This document shows, piece after piece, positions 26,384-34,746 of a DNA stretch of 64,000 bases. Both the position numbers and the translations under genes were made by a program. The notes under the pieces were generated by a model. It made no database searches. It saw nothing but the letters and a program-made list of their open reading frames with translations, and was not told the origin of the DNA. Source of the DNA: Phytoactinopolyspora mesophila (GTDB taxonomy: Bacteria; Actinomycetota; Actinomycetes; Jiangellales; Jiangellaceae); contig NZ_WLZY01000004.1 of the NCBI RefSeq assembly GCF_010122465.1, forward strand, positions 372,001 to 436,000, written 5' to 3'. Position 1 is the first letter of the stretch, and each line of letters opens with the position of its first letter.

Positions 26384-26747
26384 CTGCCGTGACCTCGATC
26401 TCGACCTTGGCCGCGGCTGGGGTCAGCGCCGTGACTTGCACAACGGTGCTGGCCGGTCGGATGTTCCGGAAGGTCTCGGCGTGTGCGCGAGCGATACCGT
26501 CGAGATCCGATAGATCGGTTGTGTAGATCGTGGTGCGGACCACGTCGTCGAAGCGTGCGTCCAGATCGGCCAGCGCGAATTCGACGATTGACAGCGCGCT
26601 CCTGGTCTGGGTGTAGGCGTCAGCTCCCAGGTCGGCCTCGCGTGGCGTGGTGCCAGAGACGTATATGTGCGCTCCGGCCCGCACCGCCCGCGAGTAGCCA
26701 TAGACGTCCTCGAAGGGGTTTTCCGATCCGATGGCACGCCGGGTCAT
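26373..26747 (-). CDS. RidA/YjgF family protein
   Basis: The 124-residue protein has the RidA fold: GYSRAVRAGAHIYVSGTTP, TRSALSIVEFALADLDARFDDVVRTTIYTTDL, and RPASTVVQVTALTPAAAKVEIEVTAV with the conserved Arg of RxxxxV. Archetypal RidA proteins hydrolyse reactive enamines and imines from PLP enzymes, but this one lacks the classic C-terminal CxxEIEAIA-like ending, so another subgroup is likely. It overlaps the HAD gene upstream by 4 bp, forming a two-gene operon. Confidence 0.85.
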   Translation of the reverse strand: MTRRAIGSENPFEDVYGYSRAVRAGAHIYVSGTTPREADLGADAYTQTRSALSIVEFALADLDARFDDVVRTTIYTTDLSDLDGIARAHAETFRNIRPASTVVQVTALTPAAAKVEIEVTAVTV

Positions 26748-27394
26748 GGCCGGCCGATCTTCTCGTCATTCTCCTCGTCCACAGTGCGCTGGCCGACGAA
26801 ATCGTCCAGCCAGTAGGGAAAGTCGAGCAGGTCGGGAAAGACGACGTCGGCGCCTGCTTCTCTCAGCGCGACGGCATCGTGCGAACCGGTGGTCACTCCG
26901 ACCGCACAAGCACCCGCTGCGCGGGCTCCGATCATGTCGCCAGGATGGTCGCCCACGTGTATCTCGGCACCGTGCTCACGTAGAGCATCGCCCTTGGTTT
27001 CGGCGAACCGCTCGCCGATGACGTCGTGAACACATAAACCGACGTGTTCCAGGACCTGGCGGACGGCGTGTTCGATCTTCGCGCTGACGACGATGACCTG
27101 CCCGCCTTTCTGGTTGACGGCGTCGACGGCCTCAGCCGCTCCAGGAAGGAGTTTCGACGCCGGCACGCCTAGGCGCGGGTACAGCTCGCGGTAGCTTCGC
27201 ACGGCCGCGGGTACCGATTCCGGCGGTACGAAATGCTCCATCGTCTCCGGCAACGGCAACCCGATCAGGGGCCGCAGCTCAACCGGGTCGATCTCGCTAC
27301 CGACCTGTCGCCCGGCTTCGACGAAACACGCGATGATGCCGTCCGCCGAGTCGACAAGGGTCAGGTCCAGGTCGAATCCGACGACTAAGCGCAT
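26744..27394 (-). CDS. HAD-superfamily phosphatase (phosphoglycolate phosphatase-like)
   Basis: The 216-residue protein shows motif I GFDLDLTLVDSADG, motif II VIVVSAKIEHA, motif III lysine in RFAETKGDAL and motif IV HVGDHPGDMIGA. The helical cap between motifs I and II is of the C1 type. It should remove phosphate from a small metabolite. On the minus strand TAGAGT is 6 nt before the ATG, so the gene is probably leaderless. It is cotranscribed with RidA, perhaps for metabolite repair. Confidence 0.86.
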   Translation of the reverse strand: MRLVVGFDLDLTLVDSADGIIACFVEAGRQVGSEIDPVELRPLIGLPLPETMEHFVPPESVPAAVRSYRELYPRLGVPASKLLPGAAEAVDAVNQKGGQVIVVSAKIEHAVRQVLEHVGLCVHDVIGERFAETKGDALREHGAEIHVGDHPGDMIGARAAGACAVGVTTGSHDAVALREAGADVVFPDLLDFPYWLDDFVGQRTVDEENDEKIGRP

Positions 27395-27463
27395 ATCGAC
27401 ACTCTACGTGGTCGGATCTTGCACACTGTGTAACCCCTGCGCCCCTCTCAGCCCAGTTCCTCA

Positions 27464-27559
27464 GGGCACCCCTGCGCGTGTTTCCCCGGGCACCCCTGCG
27501 CGTGTTCCCCCGGGCACCCCTGCGCGTGTTCCCCCGGGCACCCCTGCGCGTGTTCCCCC
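27464..27559. repeat. Tandem repeat, 24-bp unit x4
   Basis: Four contiguous copies of a 24-bp unit beginning GGGCACCCCTGCGCGTG and ending in a C-run; only the first copy differs (TTT instead of TTC before the C-run). Copies start at 27464, 27488, 27512 and 27536, and a degenerate partial copy follows. The array is non-coding and next to a large inverted repeat. Confidence 0.9.
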
Positions 27560-27591
27560 GGGCACCCTCTTCCCTCCCGGCCTCCGGGGGC

Positions 27592-27699
27592 ACCCCTCCC
27601 CGGTGATCGTCAGTGGGTTGTGGTTGCTCTCGAGGCAATAAATCAGGACATAACGACTCTGCGAACAGCCACAACCCACTGACGATCACCGGGAAGGGG
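27592..27699. repeat. Large inverted repeat, member of a dispersed palindromic family
   Basis: Arms 27592-27625 and 27666-27699 (34 nt each) pair with two mismatches around a 40-nt centre. The core GGTGATCGTCAGTGGGTTG is closely related to the arms of the element at 34647-34737 (GGTGATCGTCAGTACGTTG) and more distantly to 54724-54788. All three lie between genes. Confidence 0.8.
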
Positions 27700-27707
27700 T
27701 GGGGATT

Positions 27708-27779
27708 GGGGGTGGTGGCGACGATGGGGGTGGTGGCGACGATGGGGGTGGTGGCGACGATGGGGGTGGTGGCGACGAT
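27708..27779. repeat. Tandem repeat, 18-bp unit x4
   Basis: Four exact copies of GGGGGTGGTGGCGACGAT start at 27708, 27726, 27744 and 27762; G-rich degenerate sequence follows to about 27800. The strand is G-rich with short G-runs, which could form quadruplexes in RNA or DNA. Confidence 0.9.
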
Positions 27780-27847
27780 GGGTGGTGGGGATGGGGAGGG
27801 GTAGTAGGCCAGTGCGGCATGGTGGGGAAGGCGGCGGGGCGGAGTGG

Positions 27848-30454
27848 TTATGCGGCGCCGAGCGCGAGGAAGGCCCACGCGGTGGCCGTGGCCACGGGCG
27901 TGTCGGCGGCCTCCCGGGCGGCGAGCAGGGCGTCGCCGAGATCGGCCCCGGCAACGAGCTTCTCGTGTATGACGAGGCTGAAGGGGACACACGCGGTGTC
28001 GCTGACCGGCACGATGCTGGCGAGCAGGCCAGTGGTACCGAGTACTGAGAGCGATGTCGCCAGCCCGAGCAGCTCGTCCACCCCCGTGGGGCTGCCGACG
28101 CCGGACTCGCAGGCGGTGAGCAACAACCGATAGGGCGCCTGCTCGAGCTGCTCGAAATCGAGGACCGTGACCGGGCCGTCGGCCATCTCCAGCGAGGAGA
28201 ACATGGGGCTGTCGCCACGGAATGTGCCATGCGCTCCGATGTGGGCGAGTCTGGCCCCGTCGATCGCCTGCAGCGTGGCCGCCACCGTGGCGCGGGGGCC
28301 GGTCAGCATCGTCGCCTCCGGGTACAGACCGGCCAGCGCGGGTACTTCGGCGCCGGCGCTGCCAAGATCGGCGCCGGCGATGAGAGCCGTTCGGCCACTC
28401 CGGGCACCCGAGGAGGGCGCGGCTTCACGGGCGCGCAGCCATGCCGTGGCCGACGGCGACACCGTCACCGCTCGGCGACGCAACGACGGCAGTGCTCCCC
28501 ATGGAGCAGTCTGCACCTTTCCCGGCGGGACGATGATCACGGGCCCGTCGCCGAACAGCTCGACAGCCGGTCCCAGCAGGATCTCCTCCAACCGTTCCAT
28601 ACTCGCCTCCACGCCATTCAACATCGCTTCGGCGGCCGCGGCGGGTGCCAGCGCCGCGGCGCGGAGGGCGAATCGTGCGTAGTCGAGCTCGGCGAAGACA
28701 TCCTCGACGCGACCGGCCACCCTGCGGATCACCCGGCCGCGCCGGGCGACCGCGACGTGGAAGTTCTCATCGCGGACACCGGTGATGCTGGCCAGCGTCA
28801 AATCGTCGCCCAGGGTGTCGAGCAGCTCGCCCACGTCGAACCGGCGGCGCGACATGGACAGGTCGCCTTCGCGGGTGTGGACCCGCCGGCGGATCTTCTC
28901 CTCGATACCGCGGCGGATGGCTTCTCTGGCCGATCCGGGCAGTCTGCCGAGATCGCGGCCGGCGGCTCGGAACCGCCCGAGTTCGGCGGCCAAAGCGGGA
29001 TCGTGCCGGATAGATGGTGCGGGCAACGCATGGATGGTGCTACGCCACCGCTCGGTCCAGCGGAGCAGTTCGCGTGCGGAGCCGTCGTCCACCACCTGCC
29101 GGGTGCCGAGTACAGCGAGATCGGTGCCGTGAACGGTGGAACGGGCGCGTAGCTCCAGAGCACCGAGCGACAGCGCATGTGTGTCCAGGACGTCGAGTCC
29201 GCGTTCACAGGCACGTAGCATCGTGGCCCGATCGCCTCGTAACTTGGCGAGCTGGGCGTGGGCATACCAGGCCGTGGCGCGGCGTAACGCTGAGCCACGG
29301 CGGCGTTGGACGGCAGCTGACTCGAATGACGAGCGCGCCAGCTCGGTCAGCCCGGCCGTGAGCGCCATCCGGCCGGCCAGCACCAAGGCATCGAGCCGCT
29401 CGGAAGAGTAGCGATCGCTGAGTTCGATAGCGAGGGCGGCGGCCGCCCGCGCGTCTCGCTTGGTGACCCGCCCGGCGGCTGCTTGAGCGCGTAGCATGAC
29501 GAACCGCGCGTGCTGCACCGCCTCGAGCTGTTGCCGACGGCGGCTGGAGCGCTCGGCACGCCGGGCGAGGTCGAGCGCCCGGTGCGGATTACCGGCGGCG
29601 AGGTGGACCATCGCTGCCGCGATATAACCGTCGGCCCGCTGAAGGGCGGAGTCGTGGTCCTGTTCGAACAGGGCCACGAGTTGGTCAGCGGTCTCCGAGG
29701 CTTCCTCCGTCAAGCCGGCGGCGAGGTGGACGACGGCGATGTCGCGTACCACCTCAGGCGGGACTACACCCAGGGTCTCGTAGCGTTGCTGGGCCTCGTA
29801 GAGCATGGACAGTGCCTTTGGCAGCCAGCCCATCCGATGCGCGATGTCGCCGCGGTTGTGCAGCGCCACGATGGCGCTGTACGGGTCGCCGTTTGCTTCG
29901 GCCATCGCCTGAGCCTGGGCAAGCTCGCGGTCTGCTTCCTCGAACCGGCCGAGATGGAGCAACGCCGCCCCGGCGTTCTGGCGAGCCCGGCACTCCCAGA
30001 TCGCATCGCCGACTTCGCTCGAGATACGAGCCGCCTCGGCATTGTCGCCATAGGCGTTCTCGAAATCGCCGAGGTGTATGCGGACCGCTCCCCGGCGGAC
30101 GAGTACCCGCGCCCGTGCGTGGTAGTCCGCGCCGTTCAGCGCGTCGTCGAACGCGGCCAGCGCTTCCCGCCGCCGCCCGGCCAGTCCTAGGGCCGTCCCG
30201 AGACTCGCGCCGACCTCTACTCTGCGGTCGTCAAGCCCGTCGGCCAGTGCGGCGCGCAACCCGCGTCGCAGATACCGCAGCGCCACTCCGACCCGGCCCT
30301 GGTTGCGCTCGATGATCCCAAGCGCGTGCAAGGCGAACGTGGCCTCAAGCGGTGTGGGACCCGAGCTCAGTATGGCCCGGGCGCGACGGGTCGTGGCCTC
30401 GGGCTCGGACATCGCCAGCGCGGGCAGCTCCTCGGCCGCTCGCTCGATCCGCAC
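27848..30454 (-). CDS. TPR-CHAT protein (caspase-like protease)
   Basis: The 868-residue protein has about ten TPR-like helical repeats over residues 30-450 (FALHALGIIERNQGRVGVAL, AGAALLHLGRFEEADRELAQA and similar). A C-terminal CHAT domain spans about 600-868. The caspase-type dyad is intact: His in HIGAHG (H742) and Cys in LLLTACESG (C782). CHAT proteins are cysteine proteases or bind regulators in signalling and defence; TPRs usually sense a partner. No signal or membrane segment is present, so it is cytoplasmic. GTG 30454 has AGGA 7 nt upstream. It diverges over 125 bp from an S8 protease gene. Confidence 0.85.
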   Translation of the reverse strand: MRIERAAEELPALAMSEPEATTRRARAILSSGPTPLEATFALHALGIIERNQGRVGVALRYLRRGLRAALADGLDDRRVEVGASLGTALGLAGRRREALAAFDDALNGADYHARARVLVRRGAVRIHLGDFENAYGDNAEAARISSEVGDAIWECRARQNAGAALLHLGRFEEADRELAQAQAMAEANGDPYSAIVALHNRGDIAHRMGWLPKALSMLYEAQQRYETLGVVPPEVVRDIAVVHLAAGLTEEASETADQLVALFEQDHDSALQRADGYIAAAMVHLAAGNPHRALDLARRAERSSRRRQQLEAVQHARFVMLRAQAAAGRVTKRDARAAAALAIELSDRYSSERLDALVLAGRMALTAGLTELARSSFESAAVQRRRGSALRRATAWYAHAQLAKLRGDRATMLRACERGLDVLDTHALSLGALELRARSTVHGTDLAVLGTRQVVDDGSARELLRWTERWRSTIHALPAPSIRHDPALAAELGRFRAAGRDLGRLPGSAREAIRRGIEEKIRRRVHTREGDLSMSRRRFDVGELLDTLGDDLTLASITGVRDENFHVAVARRGRVIRRVAGRVEDVFAELDYARFALRAAALAPAAAAEAMLNGVEASMERLEEILLGPAVELFGDGPVIIVPPGKVQTAPWGALPSLRRRAVTVSPSATAWLRAREAAPSSGARSGRTALIAGADLGSAGAEVPALAGLYPEATMLTGPRATVAATLQAIDGARLAHIGAHGTFRGDSPMFSSLEMADGPVTVLDFEQLEQAPYRLLLTACESGVGSPTGVDELLGLATSLSVLGTTGLLASIVPVSDTACVPFSLVIHEKLVAGADLGDALLAAREAADTPVATATAWAFLALGAA

Positions 30455-30579
30455 CCGTCGATCCTAATGGTCCGAACTAGTGCCCTGGGCGGGACATCTT
30501 TTGGCGCCGGAAATGATCGGAACTGCGACATCTCTCCGGTATCGTCCGTCTCTGGATCCTATGAGGGGAAGGCACAACG
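30455..30579. promoter_or_regulatory. Shared divergent promoter region of CHAT and S8 protease genes
   Basis: The 125 bp between the two starts must carry both promoters. On the plus strand GGAACT (about 30528) and CGTC (about 30552), 18 nt apart, resemble an ECF-type -35/-10 pair ahead of the S8 gene, whose Shine-Dalgarno sequence is AGGGGAAGG. Nothing stands out on the other strand. Shared control of the two genes is inferred. Confidence 0.35.
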
Positions 30580-31818
30580 ATGACCGTAAGGCGCGGTAGC
30601 CGTGAGGCATTGAGGCAAGAAGTAGACCGCTTGGAGCGCAATAGCGCCGACCGCACCCGGGGACGCCAGTTCCCGCTCGGTGCGAAGTGGGATTCCACCG
30701 GTGCCCAGGTGGAATACCTCTACCGTAACCACCAGTTGATGTGCGACGCGGACGACCTTGACCAGGTGCTTGATGCGTTCGATCAGGTCGGCGCACAGCG
30801 ACCGGCTGCCGTCAATGAGGGCCCGGTGGGACTGAAGGTACTGGACATAGGTGATCGCGACGCGGCTGAGCTGGCTGAACAGCTGCTCGGCGTCGTCGAC
30901 GAGGACACCGTCGCACTCAACTACGTCCTGGAGACCCAGAGCAACACGGTCATGTGCCCAGCTACGGAGCCAGTGCCGTGGCCGGGGCCGACGCCGGTTC
31001 TCGGAGAACCGATCGGCCCGGGCCGTCCACGCCTGGCGGTCATCGACACCGGCTACCACCCGCCCGTGGCCGTGCAGTCGGGTTTCGCACGATTCGCCGC
31101 GGTCAAAGACAACTACGAGCCCGACGACGAGGTCTACGTCGAGGGCACCACTACCATCCGCCCTTACGGTGGCCACGGGACCGCGACCGCCGCGAGGCTG
31201 CTGGCCGTGTCGGGTTCGGAATCGGTGACCGTTCAGGTGCGTGACTGCCTGGTGGGCGGCGCGGTCGACGAGCTGACCATCGTCGAAGACCTGGACCGGG
31301 TTGTGCGTGCCGGAGTGGACGTCGTATGCGTCCAGGCCGGTCTATACGCCCGGGCTGGTTGTTCACCCAAAGCCTTCAACGCTTTCTATCGTCGGGTACT
31401 GCGCCGGCATCCGGACACCGTGATCGTCGTCGCCGCTGGAAACAACGGAACGGACGCGCCATTCTGGCCGGCCGCTTATCCGTGGACCACGGCCGTCGGT
31501 GCGCTGACTTCGGGTGGCGACGCGCGGGCCAGCTGGACGAACGTCGGGCACTGGGTGAACCTCTACGCGTCCGGGGAAAACGCCGTTGTCCCCTTCCCAC
31601 AGGGCACATACGAGTATCTGGACGGCACGAGTGCCGAGATCACCCAGGGGCATGTGTTGTGGTCTGGAACTTCTTTCGCCGCGCCGGTAGTTGCCGGGAT
31701 GATCGCGAGGCGGATGGTGGAGCGCGGAGTGAGCGCACCCGTGGCTCGCGACATCGTCCTGGAAGAAGCGCGTGTCGCCGGGCTCACCAGCACGGGGCCG
31801 CGCGTCGTCCTGCCGTGA
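30580..31818 (+). CDS. Cytoplasmic subtilisin-like (S8) serine protease
   Basis: The 412-residue protein contains a full S8 triad: Asp156 in LAVIDTGYH, His199 in GGHGTATAARLL and Ser365 in WSGTSFAAPVVAG; the oxyanion Asn lies in VVAAGNNGTD near 288. The first 145 residues are a charged domain unlike the usual I9 prodomain. There is no signal peptide or anchor, which is unusual for a subtilase and points to intracellular action. It diverges from the TPR-CHAT gene, so it may activate, be activated by, or share a target with CHAT. ATG 30580 follows AGGGGAAGG. Confidence 0.88.
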   Translation: MTVRRGSREALRQEVDRLERNSADRTRGRQFPLGAKWDSTGAQVEYLYRNHQLMCDADDLDQVLDAFDQVGAQRPAAVNEGPVGLKVLDIGDRDAAELAEQLLGVVDEDTVALNYVLETQSNTVMCPATEPVPWPGPTPVLGEPIGPGRPRLAVIDTGYHPPVAVQSGFARFAAVKDNYEPDDEVYVEGTTTIRPYGGHGTATAARLLAVSGSESVTVQVRDCLVGGAVDELTIVEDLDRVVRAGVDVVCVQAGLYARAGCSPKAFNAFYRRVLRRHPDTVIVVAAGNNGTDAPFWPAAYPWTTAVGALTSGGDARASWTNVGHWVNLYASGENAVVPFPQGTYEYLDGTSAEITQGHVLWSGTSFAAPVVAGMIARRMVERGVSAPVARDIVLEEARVAGLTSTGPRVVLP

Positions 31819-31948: not shown

Positions 31949-31976
31949 TTGCCCATTCCCCTGTGATGAGTAATCT
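31949..31976 (+). promoter_or_regulatory. Promoter of the 46-residue small protein gene
   Basis: TTGCCC (31949-31954), a 16-nt spacer and TAATCT (31971-31976) precede GTG 31984 by 7 nt, the spacing seen at other leaderless genes in the window. It makes the small gene a separate transcription unit from the S8 protease. Confidence 0.5.
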
Positions 31977-31983
31977 CGTTAAA

Positions 31984-32124
31984 GTGAGTTTTGGACGGCG
32001 AATACCGCAGGAAGTCCCGATCGACCCGGAGATCACGGCTGAGTTGCGGGCGGCTGACGAAGAGGCGCGGCAAGAGTTCGCCCAGCGTAGCTTCGAGGTC
32101 CTGGAGCGGCTCCGCAGTCTCTAG
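31984..32124 (+). CDS. Small acidic helical protein, unknown function
   Basis: The frame encodes 46 residues from GTG 31984 (52 from the ATG at 31966): a short basic start (MSFGRRIPQEVPIDPEI), then one predicted amphipathic helix rich in Glu, Ala, Arg and Leu. I prefer the GTG because TAATCT lies 7 nt upstream with a plausible -35 box, while the ATG would overlap the promoter. It has no recognised family. It stands between the S8 protease and the helicase-associated gene, so a role as small partner of either is conceivable but unproven. Confidence 0.5.
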   Translation: MSFGRRIPQEVPIDPEITAELRAADEEARQEFAQRSFEVLERLRSL

Positions 32125-32235: not shown

Positions 32236-34614
32236 ATGCCCAGGACGAACGCAGGGCCGAGGAGTCTCGCGGACGACTTACGGACCCGAACCGACGAGGA
32301 ACTCGCGGCGTTGCTTCGGCTGCGGCCGGACCTCGTCGTGCCGGTACCGGTCGACATCGCCCAGCTGGCATCCAGAGCCGTCACCCGTTCGTCCGTGGTC
32401 CGTGCGCTAGACCGGCTCGATCAGCTCTCGTTGCACGTCGTCGACGCACTGGTGGTGCTGCCAGACCCCACGTCCGCCGGTAACGTCCAACGGATGCTCG
32501 GTCTTCCGGCGCGCACAGTCCGGACCGTGCTGGAAGCATTGCGCGCCCGGGCCTTGACTTGGGGCGAGAAGCACGAGATCCACCTCGTGCGGGCCGTGGC
32601 CGAGATCATCGGTCCGCATCCGGCAGGGCTGGGACCACCCGCCCGGCAGTTACTGATGGCGCTGCCGCCGTCACGCCTGGCCACGATGACCACCGACCTC
32701 GGGTTGCCGACGAAGGGCGATCACGCTACCCACGCGGAGCTTGTGGCAGCGCACCTTGGTTCGGCGGAAACTCTGGAACCACTACTGCAGGGCTTGAGCC
32801 CGGAGGCGGCCGCCGCCTTGCGCGCGCTGGTCGACGGGCCGCCCACCGGCCGGGTGGAAGACGCGCGGCGCGAGGTCGACCTGGCGAACGTCCGGACCCC
32901 CATCGACTACCTGCTGGCCACCGGATTGCTGATACCTGTCGACGGCGACGCCGTGGTGTTGCCCCGTGAAGTGGGCCTGCACCTGCGCGGCGGTGTCATT
33001 CGCGGGAACATCCAGGTTGCTCCGCCGGAGCCGGAAGTTTCCTCCCGCGAGGTGGACATGGTGGACCGGGCAGCCGCGGCCAGTGCCTTCGAAGTCGTCC
33101 GGAAGGTCGAGACACTGCTCGATACGTGGGCGATGGATCCGCCTCCAGTGCTGCGTACCGGCGGGCTCGGGGTCCGTGACTTCCGCAAACTGCCCGCCTT
33201 GCTCGACACCGACGAGACAGGCGCGGCGTTGATCGCCGAGCTCGCATACACCTCGGCCTTGCTGGCGCCAGCCGACGGCGGCGACGAGGGGTGGCTGCCG
33301 ACACCGGAGTACGACACCTGGCAGCGTGAAACCGTTGCCGCCCGGTGGGCCGTCTTGGCCGAGTCTTGGCTGCGCTCCAGCCGCACAGCCGGATTGGTCG
33401 GTACCCGCGACGACCGGGATCGGCTGATCGCCCCGCTCGGCGGTGACCTGGACCGCCCGGTTGCTTCAGAGATCCGGCGGCAAGTCCTCGACCTCCTGGC
33501 CAGTCTGCCGGCGGGCGCAGCGCCCGAACGCGATGGCGTCGTCGAGACCGTGCGCTGGCAGCGCCCACGGCGAGGTGGCCGGCTGCGAGACGACGTCGTC
33601 GGCTGGACTTTGCGGGAGGCGGAGACACTCGGTATCACCGGCCGGGGGGCGCTGGCGTCATATGTCCGTCCGTTGCTCGGCGGCGGTGAGTCTGCGGCGA
33701 CGTCGGCTGCCGTCGCCCTGACTGACCATTTGCCGGAACCGCTCGAACATGTGCTGTTGCAGGCAGACCTGACCGCAGTGGCACCCGGGCCGTTGCAACC
33801 GGAACTGGCCCGCGAGCTGAACCTGCTGGCCGACGTTGAAAGCCGCGGAGGTGCATCGGTCTATCGGTTCACCGCCGGCTCGATCCGCCGGGCGCTCGAC
33901 GCCGGGCGGAGCGCGGACGATCTTCACCGGTTCCTTCTCTCGGCGTCTCGCACCCCGGTGCCGCAACCGTTGACCTATCTCGTGGACGACGTCGCCCGAA
34001 GACACGGATTGCTGCGCGTTGGTGCGGCGGCGTCGTTCATCCGTTGTGACGACCACGCGGTGCTCACGGAGATCCTGGCCGCTCCTCAAGCCTCAGCGCT
34101 GGGCATTCGCCGGCTGGCGCCCACTGTGCTGGCGTCATCGCTTGACGGTCTCACTCTGCTGGAGAGGCTTCGCCAGATGGGGTTCGCGCCGACCCCGGAA
34201 GACGCCAACGGCTCGATCGTCGTCGCGCAGGCCCGGCCGCGGCGTTCGCCGCCCCGGCCCGCCCCACAGCCGACCCTGGCCGAACGGCCCGCTCCGACCG
34301 AGACGGTCCTAGGCGCGGCCGTGCGTGCCTTGCGGGCCGGCGACCGCTCCGCCACGGTCCGCCCGCCCGACGCTGTGCCTGGCCGGTTGGGCCGGAGCGC
34401 TTCCGCCCAGATGCTCTCTGATCTTCGTCGCGCACTCGACGACGGCGCTTCGATCTGGATCGGATACGTCGACCAGCACGGTTCCACCAGCGAGCGCGTG
34501 GTGGATCCGGTACGCCTCGAAGGTGGCTGGCTCGCCGCCTTCGATCACCGCAGCAACGAGATCCGATCGTTCGCCGTGCACCGCATCAGCGGCGTTGCCG
34601 TCGTCGACGCATGA
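32236..34614 (+). CDS. XPB-associated protein (helicase-associated, Helicase_C_3-like)
   Basis: The 792-residue protein matches the large actinobacterial helicase-associated proteins encoded near the XPB gene. The N-terminal part is a series of winged-helix-like segments (TDEELAALLRLRPDLV...VVRALDRLDQLSLHVVDALVVL). The middle has the family segment LEHVLLQADLTAVAPGPLQPELARELNLLADVESRGGASVYRFT. The C-terminus carries a WYL-like beta domain (IWIGYVDQHGSTSERVVDPVRLEGGWLAAFDH...RSFAVHRI). It lacks a helicase motor. It probably works with XPB in DNA repair or transcription. TAGTGT 7 nt before ATG 32236 suggests a leaderless message. Confidence 0.82.
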   Translation: MPRTNAGPRSLADDLRTRTDEELAALLRLRPDLVVPVPVDIAQLASRAVTRSSVVRALDRLDQLSLHVVDALVVLPDPTSAGNVQRMLGLPARTVRTVLEALRARALTWGEKHEIHLVRAVAEIIGPHPAGLGPPARQLLMALPPSRLATMTTDLGLPTKGDHATHAELVAAHLGSAETLEPLLQGLSPEAAAALRALVDGPPTGRVEDARREVDLANVRTPIDYLLATGLLIPVDGDAVVLPREVGLHLRGGVIRGNIQVAPPEPEVSSREVDMVDRAAAASAFEVVRKVETLLDTWAMDPPPVLRTGGLGVRDFRKLPALLDTDETGAALIAELAYTSALLAPADGGDEGWLPTPEYDTWQRETVAARWAVLAESWLRSSRTAGLVGTRDDRDRLIAPLGGDLDRPVASEIRRQVLDLLASLPAGAAPERDGVVETVRWQRPRRGGRLRDDVVGWTLREAETLGITGRGALASYVRPLLGGGESAATSAAVALTDHLPEPLEHVLLQADLTAVAPGPLQPELARELNLLADVESRGGASVYRFTAGSIRRALDAGRSADDLHRFLLSASRTPVPQPLTYLVDDVARRHGLLRVGAAASFIRCDDHAVLTEILAAPQASALGIRRLAPTVLASSLDGLTLLERLRQMGFAPTPEDANGSIVVAQARPRRSPPRPAPQPTLAERPAPTETVLGAAVRALRAGDRSATVRPPDAVPGRLGRSASAQMLSDLRRALDDGASIWIGYVDQHGSTSERVVDPVRLEGGWLAAFDHRSNEIRSFAVHRISGVAVVDA

Positions 34615-34646
34615 ACCTGAACCACCACTACCCGCCGCCCCATTCC

Positions 34647-34737
34647 CGGTGATCGTCAGTACGTTGTGGTCGTTCTTGGCCATGCTGACCAGGAGCTTCG
34701 CGACGTAGCAACGACCACAACGTACTGACGATCACCG
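34647..34737. repeat. Perfect 28-bp inverted repeat of the dispersed palindromic family
   Basis: Arms 34647-34674 and 34710-34737 are exact reverse complements around a 35-nt centre. The outer part (GGTGATCGTCAGTNNGTTGTGG) is shared with the element at 27592-27699. It lies between two convergent genes and could serve as a bidirectional terminator. Confidence 0.85.
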
Positions 34738-34746
34738 AGCGGGAGG

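Follow-up and report, generated by a model that had tools for sequence, protein, structure and literature searches.

A TPR-CHAT protease and a cytoplasmic subtilase as the possible protease half of an actinobacterial module with an ECF sigma factor

Type III-E CRISPR uses a TPR-CHAT protease, Csx29, to cleave Csx30, which has two domains and inhibits an ECF sigma factor (PMC10028731). A related arrangement of genes has been described for the ECF sigma factor group ECF54, whose genetic context, according to the passage of a 2022 review (PMC8999054) that summarises Casas-Pastor et al. 2021, comprises carboxypeptidase, subtilase and CHAT proteins; the control proposed in that passage is proteolysis of the sigma factor without an anti-sigma factor. 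Our search for literature on CHAT proteins together with subtilisins or sigma factors returned one relevant review, and the literature searched contained no signal, target or function for a module of proteases and an ECF sigma factor.

Here we analyse a window of 64,000 nucleotides (positions 372001-436000 of contig C4 in genome G000) whose sequence places its source in the Jiangellaceae, most likely in Phytoactinopolyspora. An earlier note on this DNA had proposed that a TPR-CHAT protein and a subtilisin-like protease of peptidase family S8, encoded side by side, form a two-protease system. The larger unit, whose other half, a sigma factor and a small protein that we call C7, lies elsewhere on the chromosome, was missed there.

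The protease pair in the window

The window encodes the two proteases on opposite strands (Table 1). Pfam searches place a CHAT domain, which is caspase-like, at residues 618-852 of the larger protein (1e-21) and detect TPR_12 (3.6e-13), with TPR repeats at about residues 40-320, so that TPR repeats are fused to a CHAT domain carrying a His/Cys dyad, as in Csx29. When the CHAT profile was compared with solved structures, Csx29 and other TPR-CHAT chains matched with E-values of 1e-9 to 1e-4. The subtilase matches Peptidase_S8 (1.2e-19), and both the family S8 triad and the subtilase fold are present. The CHAT dyad is invariant among all relatives that reach the dyad region and the S8 triad is kept in every relative save one truncated copy, consistent with the claim of the earlier note that both proteins keep their catalytic residues. 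Its two further observations on the pair, that export and membrane signals are absent and that the genes share a 125-bp divergent gap, hold as well: the highest 19-residue hydropathy is 1.26 in S8 and 1.71 in CHAT, both N-termini are polar, and by these measures neither protein has a transmembrane or signal segment. Within the gap, the sequence CGGTATCGTC upstream of the S8 gene is common to the window and its two nearest relatives; in Jiangella the gap is ~53 bp.

Table 1. Positions of the genes and sequence elements (within the window unless a contig is given)
Feature	Position	Strand	Description
Tandem repeat, 24 bp	27456-27567		4.7 copies; downstream of CHAT gene
Tandem repeat, 18 bp	27707-27788		4.5 copies; downstream of CHAT gene
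93-bp element, first copy	27600-27692		24-bp inverted arms
93-bp element, second copy	34646-34738		24-bp inverted arms
HAD phosphatase	26744-27394	-	flanks CHAT gene; kept in relatives without the pair; not part of the proposed mechanism
TPR-CHAT protease	27848-30454	-	868 aa; Pfam CHAT and TPR_12; dyad His742/Cys782
Divergent promoter region	30455-30579	.	125 bp; short -10-like boxes on both sides, by inspection only
Subtilase S8	30580-31818	+	412 aa; Pfam Peptidase_S8; triad Asp156/His199/Ser365
Small ORF	31963-32124		53 residues
Helicase-C3/WYL protein	32236-34614	+	other flank; kept in relatives without the pair; not part of the proposed mechanism
ECF sigma factor	G000 contig C1, about 979229-979843		Sigma70_r2 2.2e-14; Sigma70_r4 2.5e-5
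C7	G000 contig C1, about 979840-980337		stop/start overlap with sigma gene

The predicted structure of S8 is confident (mean pLDDT 90.3) and, from residue 50 to the end, aligns with unautoprocessed pro-subtilisin E (Z 28.0, rmsd 3.7, 301 residues); the N-terminal domain is therefore pro-subtilisin-like in its predicted fold, and the model suggests a zymogen-like enzyme. Pfam I9 matches none of the 31 S8 relatives, so the description of this domain as non-I9 in the earlier note agrees with the sequence, and the predicted fold speaks against it. A CPxTEP linker is conserved at residues 126-131, the model being of low confidence in the linker just before it (residues 121-125), and intracellular serine proteases are among the best sequence matches of the protein. 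Several Jiangella loci (L071, L073, L074, L075, L076, L067) contain a second S8 gene in tandem, ~53-55% identical and with the triad kept; the copies of L076 and L067 are frame-broken or partial.

Around the pair, we noticed some smaller features. The 53-residue ORF is conserved in at least seven Jiangellaceae loci and is kept in G001, a genome without the pair; it therefore belongs to the flank. The 93-bp element (GGTGATCGTCAGTNNGTTGTGG core) is a member of an interspersed palindromic repeat family, its core occurring exactly 111 times in the genome compared with 0 for the reversed control. The region downstream of CHAT also holds two sets of tandem repeats.

An ECF sigma factor and C7 accompany the pair

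Conserved adjacency beyond close relatives, a check set by the earlier note, was found in both sets of loci that we compared. Among 80 named loci, an unbiased set retrieved with the CHAT profile alone, S8 adjoins CHAT in 78, the other two lying at contig ends. A further 40 loci were inspected from a search of 99 relatives, chosen partly because both matches were present, and here S8 is next to CHAT or inside the same cluster in every case, a count taken from a six-frame profile search, which also recovers several S8 genes hidden by overlapping ORFs. The nearest named relatives of the window come from Phytoactinopolyspora and Jiangella; TPR-CHAT relatives are widespread in Streptomyces and Kribbella. 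The adjacency of CHAT and S8 is real and old, and the case for a dedicated functional pair is strong. The proposed two-protease system stands as a dedicated pair but not as a two-protein system: an ECF-type sigma factor and C7, a protein of ~150 residues, belong to it and accompany the pair in 64 of the 80 named loci.

All four genes are adjacent in 20 of 24 inspected loci from outside the Jiangellaceae, in varying orders (S8-sigma-C7-CHAT; sigma-C7-S8-CHAT; S8-sigma-C7 divergent from CHAT). Wherever both were seen, sigma and C7 are side by side in the same direction with C7 second, and four non-Jiangellaceae genomes whose CHAT locus lacks them (G048, G070, G078, G086) carry C7 elsewhere. Across 394 Actinomycetes genomes, C7 occurs in 95 and a TPR-CHAT protein of this type (E at most 1e-60) in 117; both are found in 94, and C7 by itself in one that is 75% complete (Fisher p ~3e-67, uncorrected for relatedness). 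At a stricter CHAT cut-off of 1e-150, C7 is present in 70 of 71 genomes. The four genes therefore occur together across Actinomycetes. TPR-CHAT genes with E above 1e-150 occur without C7 in 22 genomes, so some of the wider family must function in its absence; apart from one (G101), the genomes with TPR-CHAT only have weaker profile matches, and they probably include other CHAT families.

In the Jiangellaceae, the module is split. In none of 16 loci of the family does the 20-kb region surrounding the pair contain a sigma factor or C7 of this type. Instead, the genome of the window carries them at an unlinked locus on contig C1 (about 979.2-980.3 kb), and they are present in all 17 Jiangellaceae genomes with the protease pair. 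Three genomes of the window's genus (G001, G002, G004) have neither the pair nor C7, and the flanking HAD and helicase genes are still near neighbours there; in G008, which is 75% complete, sigma and C7 are present without the pair. The tree of the flanking helicase is compatible with one or two events for the loss of both halves in the genus, and since it allows a single event, the joint loss is suggestive rather than strong independent evidence. Overall, the four genes of the Jiangellaceae occupy two unlinked loci and are still co-inherited.

Sigma paralogues with weaker matches (E 1e-48 to 1e-50) occur in G001 and G002 within a different, conserved neighbourhood that lacks C7, and we did not count them as partners. 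Related sigma genes without C7 lie at about 185370 on contig C12 of G001 and about 74009 on contig C6 of G002, both genomes without the protease pair. Separately, a hairpin is conserved ~100-130 bp upstream of the sigma gene in Jiangellaceae (L124:7060-7145, outside the window; also L125, L126, L127, L128, L129, L136 and L139). Of 22 predicted pairs, 9 carry a compensatory change in one or more of the eight sequences, with a small covariation term, and Rfam gave no match in two sigma-C7 loci (L124, L129); the hairpin may represent a leader RNA, or simply a terminator.

A structural model of C7, built on the sequence of a relative, consists of two helices, a low-confidence linker (residues 57-69) and a β-sandwich (residues 73-147). 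Arg67, which lies in the linker, does not vary across 31 relatives. This architecture, with two apparent domains and a cuttable linker containing an invariant arginine, suits a protease substrate. Pfam CarboxypepD_reg was detected below its cut-off in the C7 of the window's genome (0.0026; 18.5 of 32.3 bits) and in 8 of the 31 relatives. The fold matches are Ig-like β-sandwiches with Z no higher than 8.7, as often arises by chance. By analogy with Csx30, C7 is probably an anti-sigma factor.

What the proteases may act on

Together, these observations suggest a reading, for which the chances look balanced, in which TPR-CHAT, S8, the ECF sigma factor and C7 make up a cytoplasmic signalling module of four components, the pair being its protease half and cutting C7 to free the sigma factor. 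C7 would hold the sigma factor inactive until the TPR repeats sense a signal and the CHAT protease becomes active; CHAT and the subtilase, the latter as a second, zymogen-like protease, would then cut C7, and the freed sigma factor would direct transcription of its target genes. The module shares three kinds of component with the Csx29-Csx30-sigma system and adds the subtilase; the simplest reading casts C7 as a sigma inhibitor that the protease pair removes on a signal. A more specific form is put forward tentatively, as possible but falling short of even chances: a CRISPR-independent protease-sigma switch, common in actinobacteria, in which the TPR-CHAT protease and a cytoplasmic subtilase of zymogen-like character work one after the other on the small anti-sigma factor C7, and do so in trans after the split.

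Several points weigh against release of the sigma factor from C7. The C7 profile matched no PDB sequence, including no solved anti-sigma factor and not Csx30, and its β-sandwich matches are common arrangements. The Csx29 precedent leaves the role of S8 unaccounted for, the co-loss in the genus may be a single event, and TPR-CHAT genes with weaker profile scores are found in genomes without C7. In addition, the control proposed for ECF54 in the review passage cited above is of another kind, and it leads to a rather doubtful alternative, in which the proteases degrade the sigma factor directly, keeping it off until a signal stops them, and C7 is an adaptor presenting it. Encoding of C7 directly beside sigma, like the same co-occurrence data, fits this alternative; the substrate-like architecture predicted for C7 speaks against it, as does the Csx29 precedent, where a sigma factor is released from an inhibitor and not degraded (PMC10028731).

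The earlier note had suggested a relay between the proteases. S8 may cut or restrain CHAT, but we consider sigma-C7 the better candidate target. In a broader version, which we regard as unlikely, one protease activates the other, for example CHAT cutting the linker between the S8 prodomain and catalytic domain, the final targets are other proteins, and sigma-C7 only controls expression of the pair. The pro-subtilisin-like N-terminal domain of the S8 model, with its low-confidence linker before CPxTEP, is in keeping with such a step, and S8 and CHAT are still linked where sigma-C7 has moved away. Against this version, by eye we recognised neither a motif common to the S8/CHAT gap and the region upstream of sigma-C7 nor an ECF-type promoter common to both loci, the boxes seen looking like ordinary -10 elements. 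Moreover, C7 is co-inherited and not sigma alone, which suggests a role at the protein level.

Finally, an anti-phage or cell-death effector pair cutting host proteins upon infection, a conflict reading raised by the earlier note and recalling the action of TPR-CHAT proteases in type III-E CRISPR (PMC10028731), is very improbable and has no local support. A subtilase model of PADLOC with a weak match to S8 (1.1e-6) speaks for it. On the other side, a PADLOC scan of the pair and its flanks yielded nothing beyond weak or generic TPR, subtilase, WYL and helicase matches, leading us to reject a defence island. The genes on either side have ordinary functions (sugar ABC transporter, MocA oxidoreductases, RidA, HAD phosphatase, helicases, LytR family), with no defence genes among those tested, and the chromosomal context is stable over the family, with wide presence in Streptomyces and Kribbella.

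Comparison with described systems

The S8 protease of the window shares its catalytic triad and its overall predicted fold, including a propeptide-like N-terminal domain, with the pro-subtilisins of family S8 (pro-subtilisin E, Tk-subtilisin) and the intracellular subtilisins. It differs in having no signal peptide and no Pfam I9 sequence match, and in an extra N-terminal helix before residue 30 and the conserved CPxTEP linker.

As in the ECF54 neighbourhood outlined in the review passage, the present module combines a sigma factor with a subtilase and CHAT proteins in an actinobacterial setting, and this match to the published neighbourhood makes the sigma factor a putative member of group ECF54. 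In the window's family, in contrast, the subtilase and CHAT genes are not in the genetic context of the sigma gene, the module being split into two unlinked loci. A second difference is that C7 is proposed here as the sigma inhibitor, whereas the passage assumes none for ECF54. By setting the proteases apart from sigma-C7, the split form shows which components have to cooperate without a shared operon; it points to C7 as the missing inhibitor and makes the published guess at ECF54 control directly testable.

The likeness to the type III-E CRISPR-associated system of Csx29 lies in the combination of a TPR-CHAT protease, an ECF sigma factor and a third protein that, in our model, has two domains. 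The present module has the extra subtilase, and C7, at ~150 aa, is much shorter than Csx30 (565 aa), to which it bears no sequence match. Unlike in the Csx29 system, no Cas7-11 gene occurs among the flanks tested; csx30 is likewise absent from the adjacent genes, which are metabolic and repair genes without a PADLOC match to a cas effector. The module is present in about a quarter of the sampled Actinomycetes genomes, including many Streptomyces. If the proposed switch is correct, actinobacterial cells would have their own equivalent of the Csx29-Csx30-CASP-sigma pathway, and the CRISPR-linked TPR-CHAT switch may have its ancestor, or a parallel, in this module.
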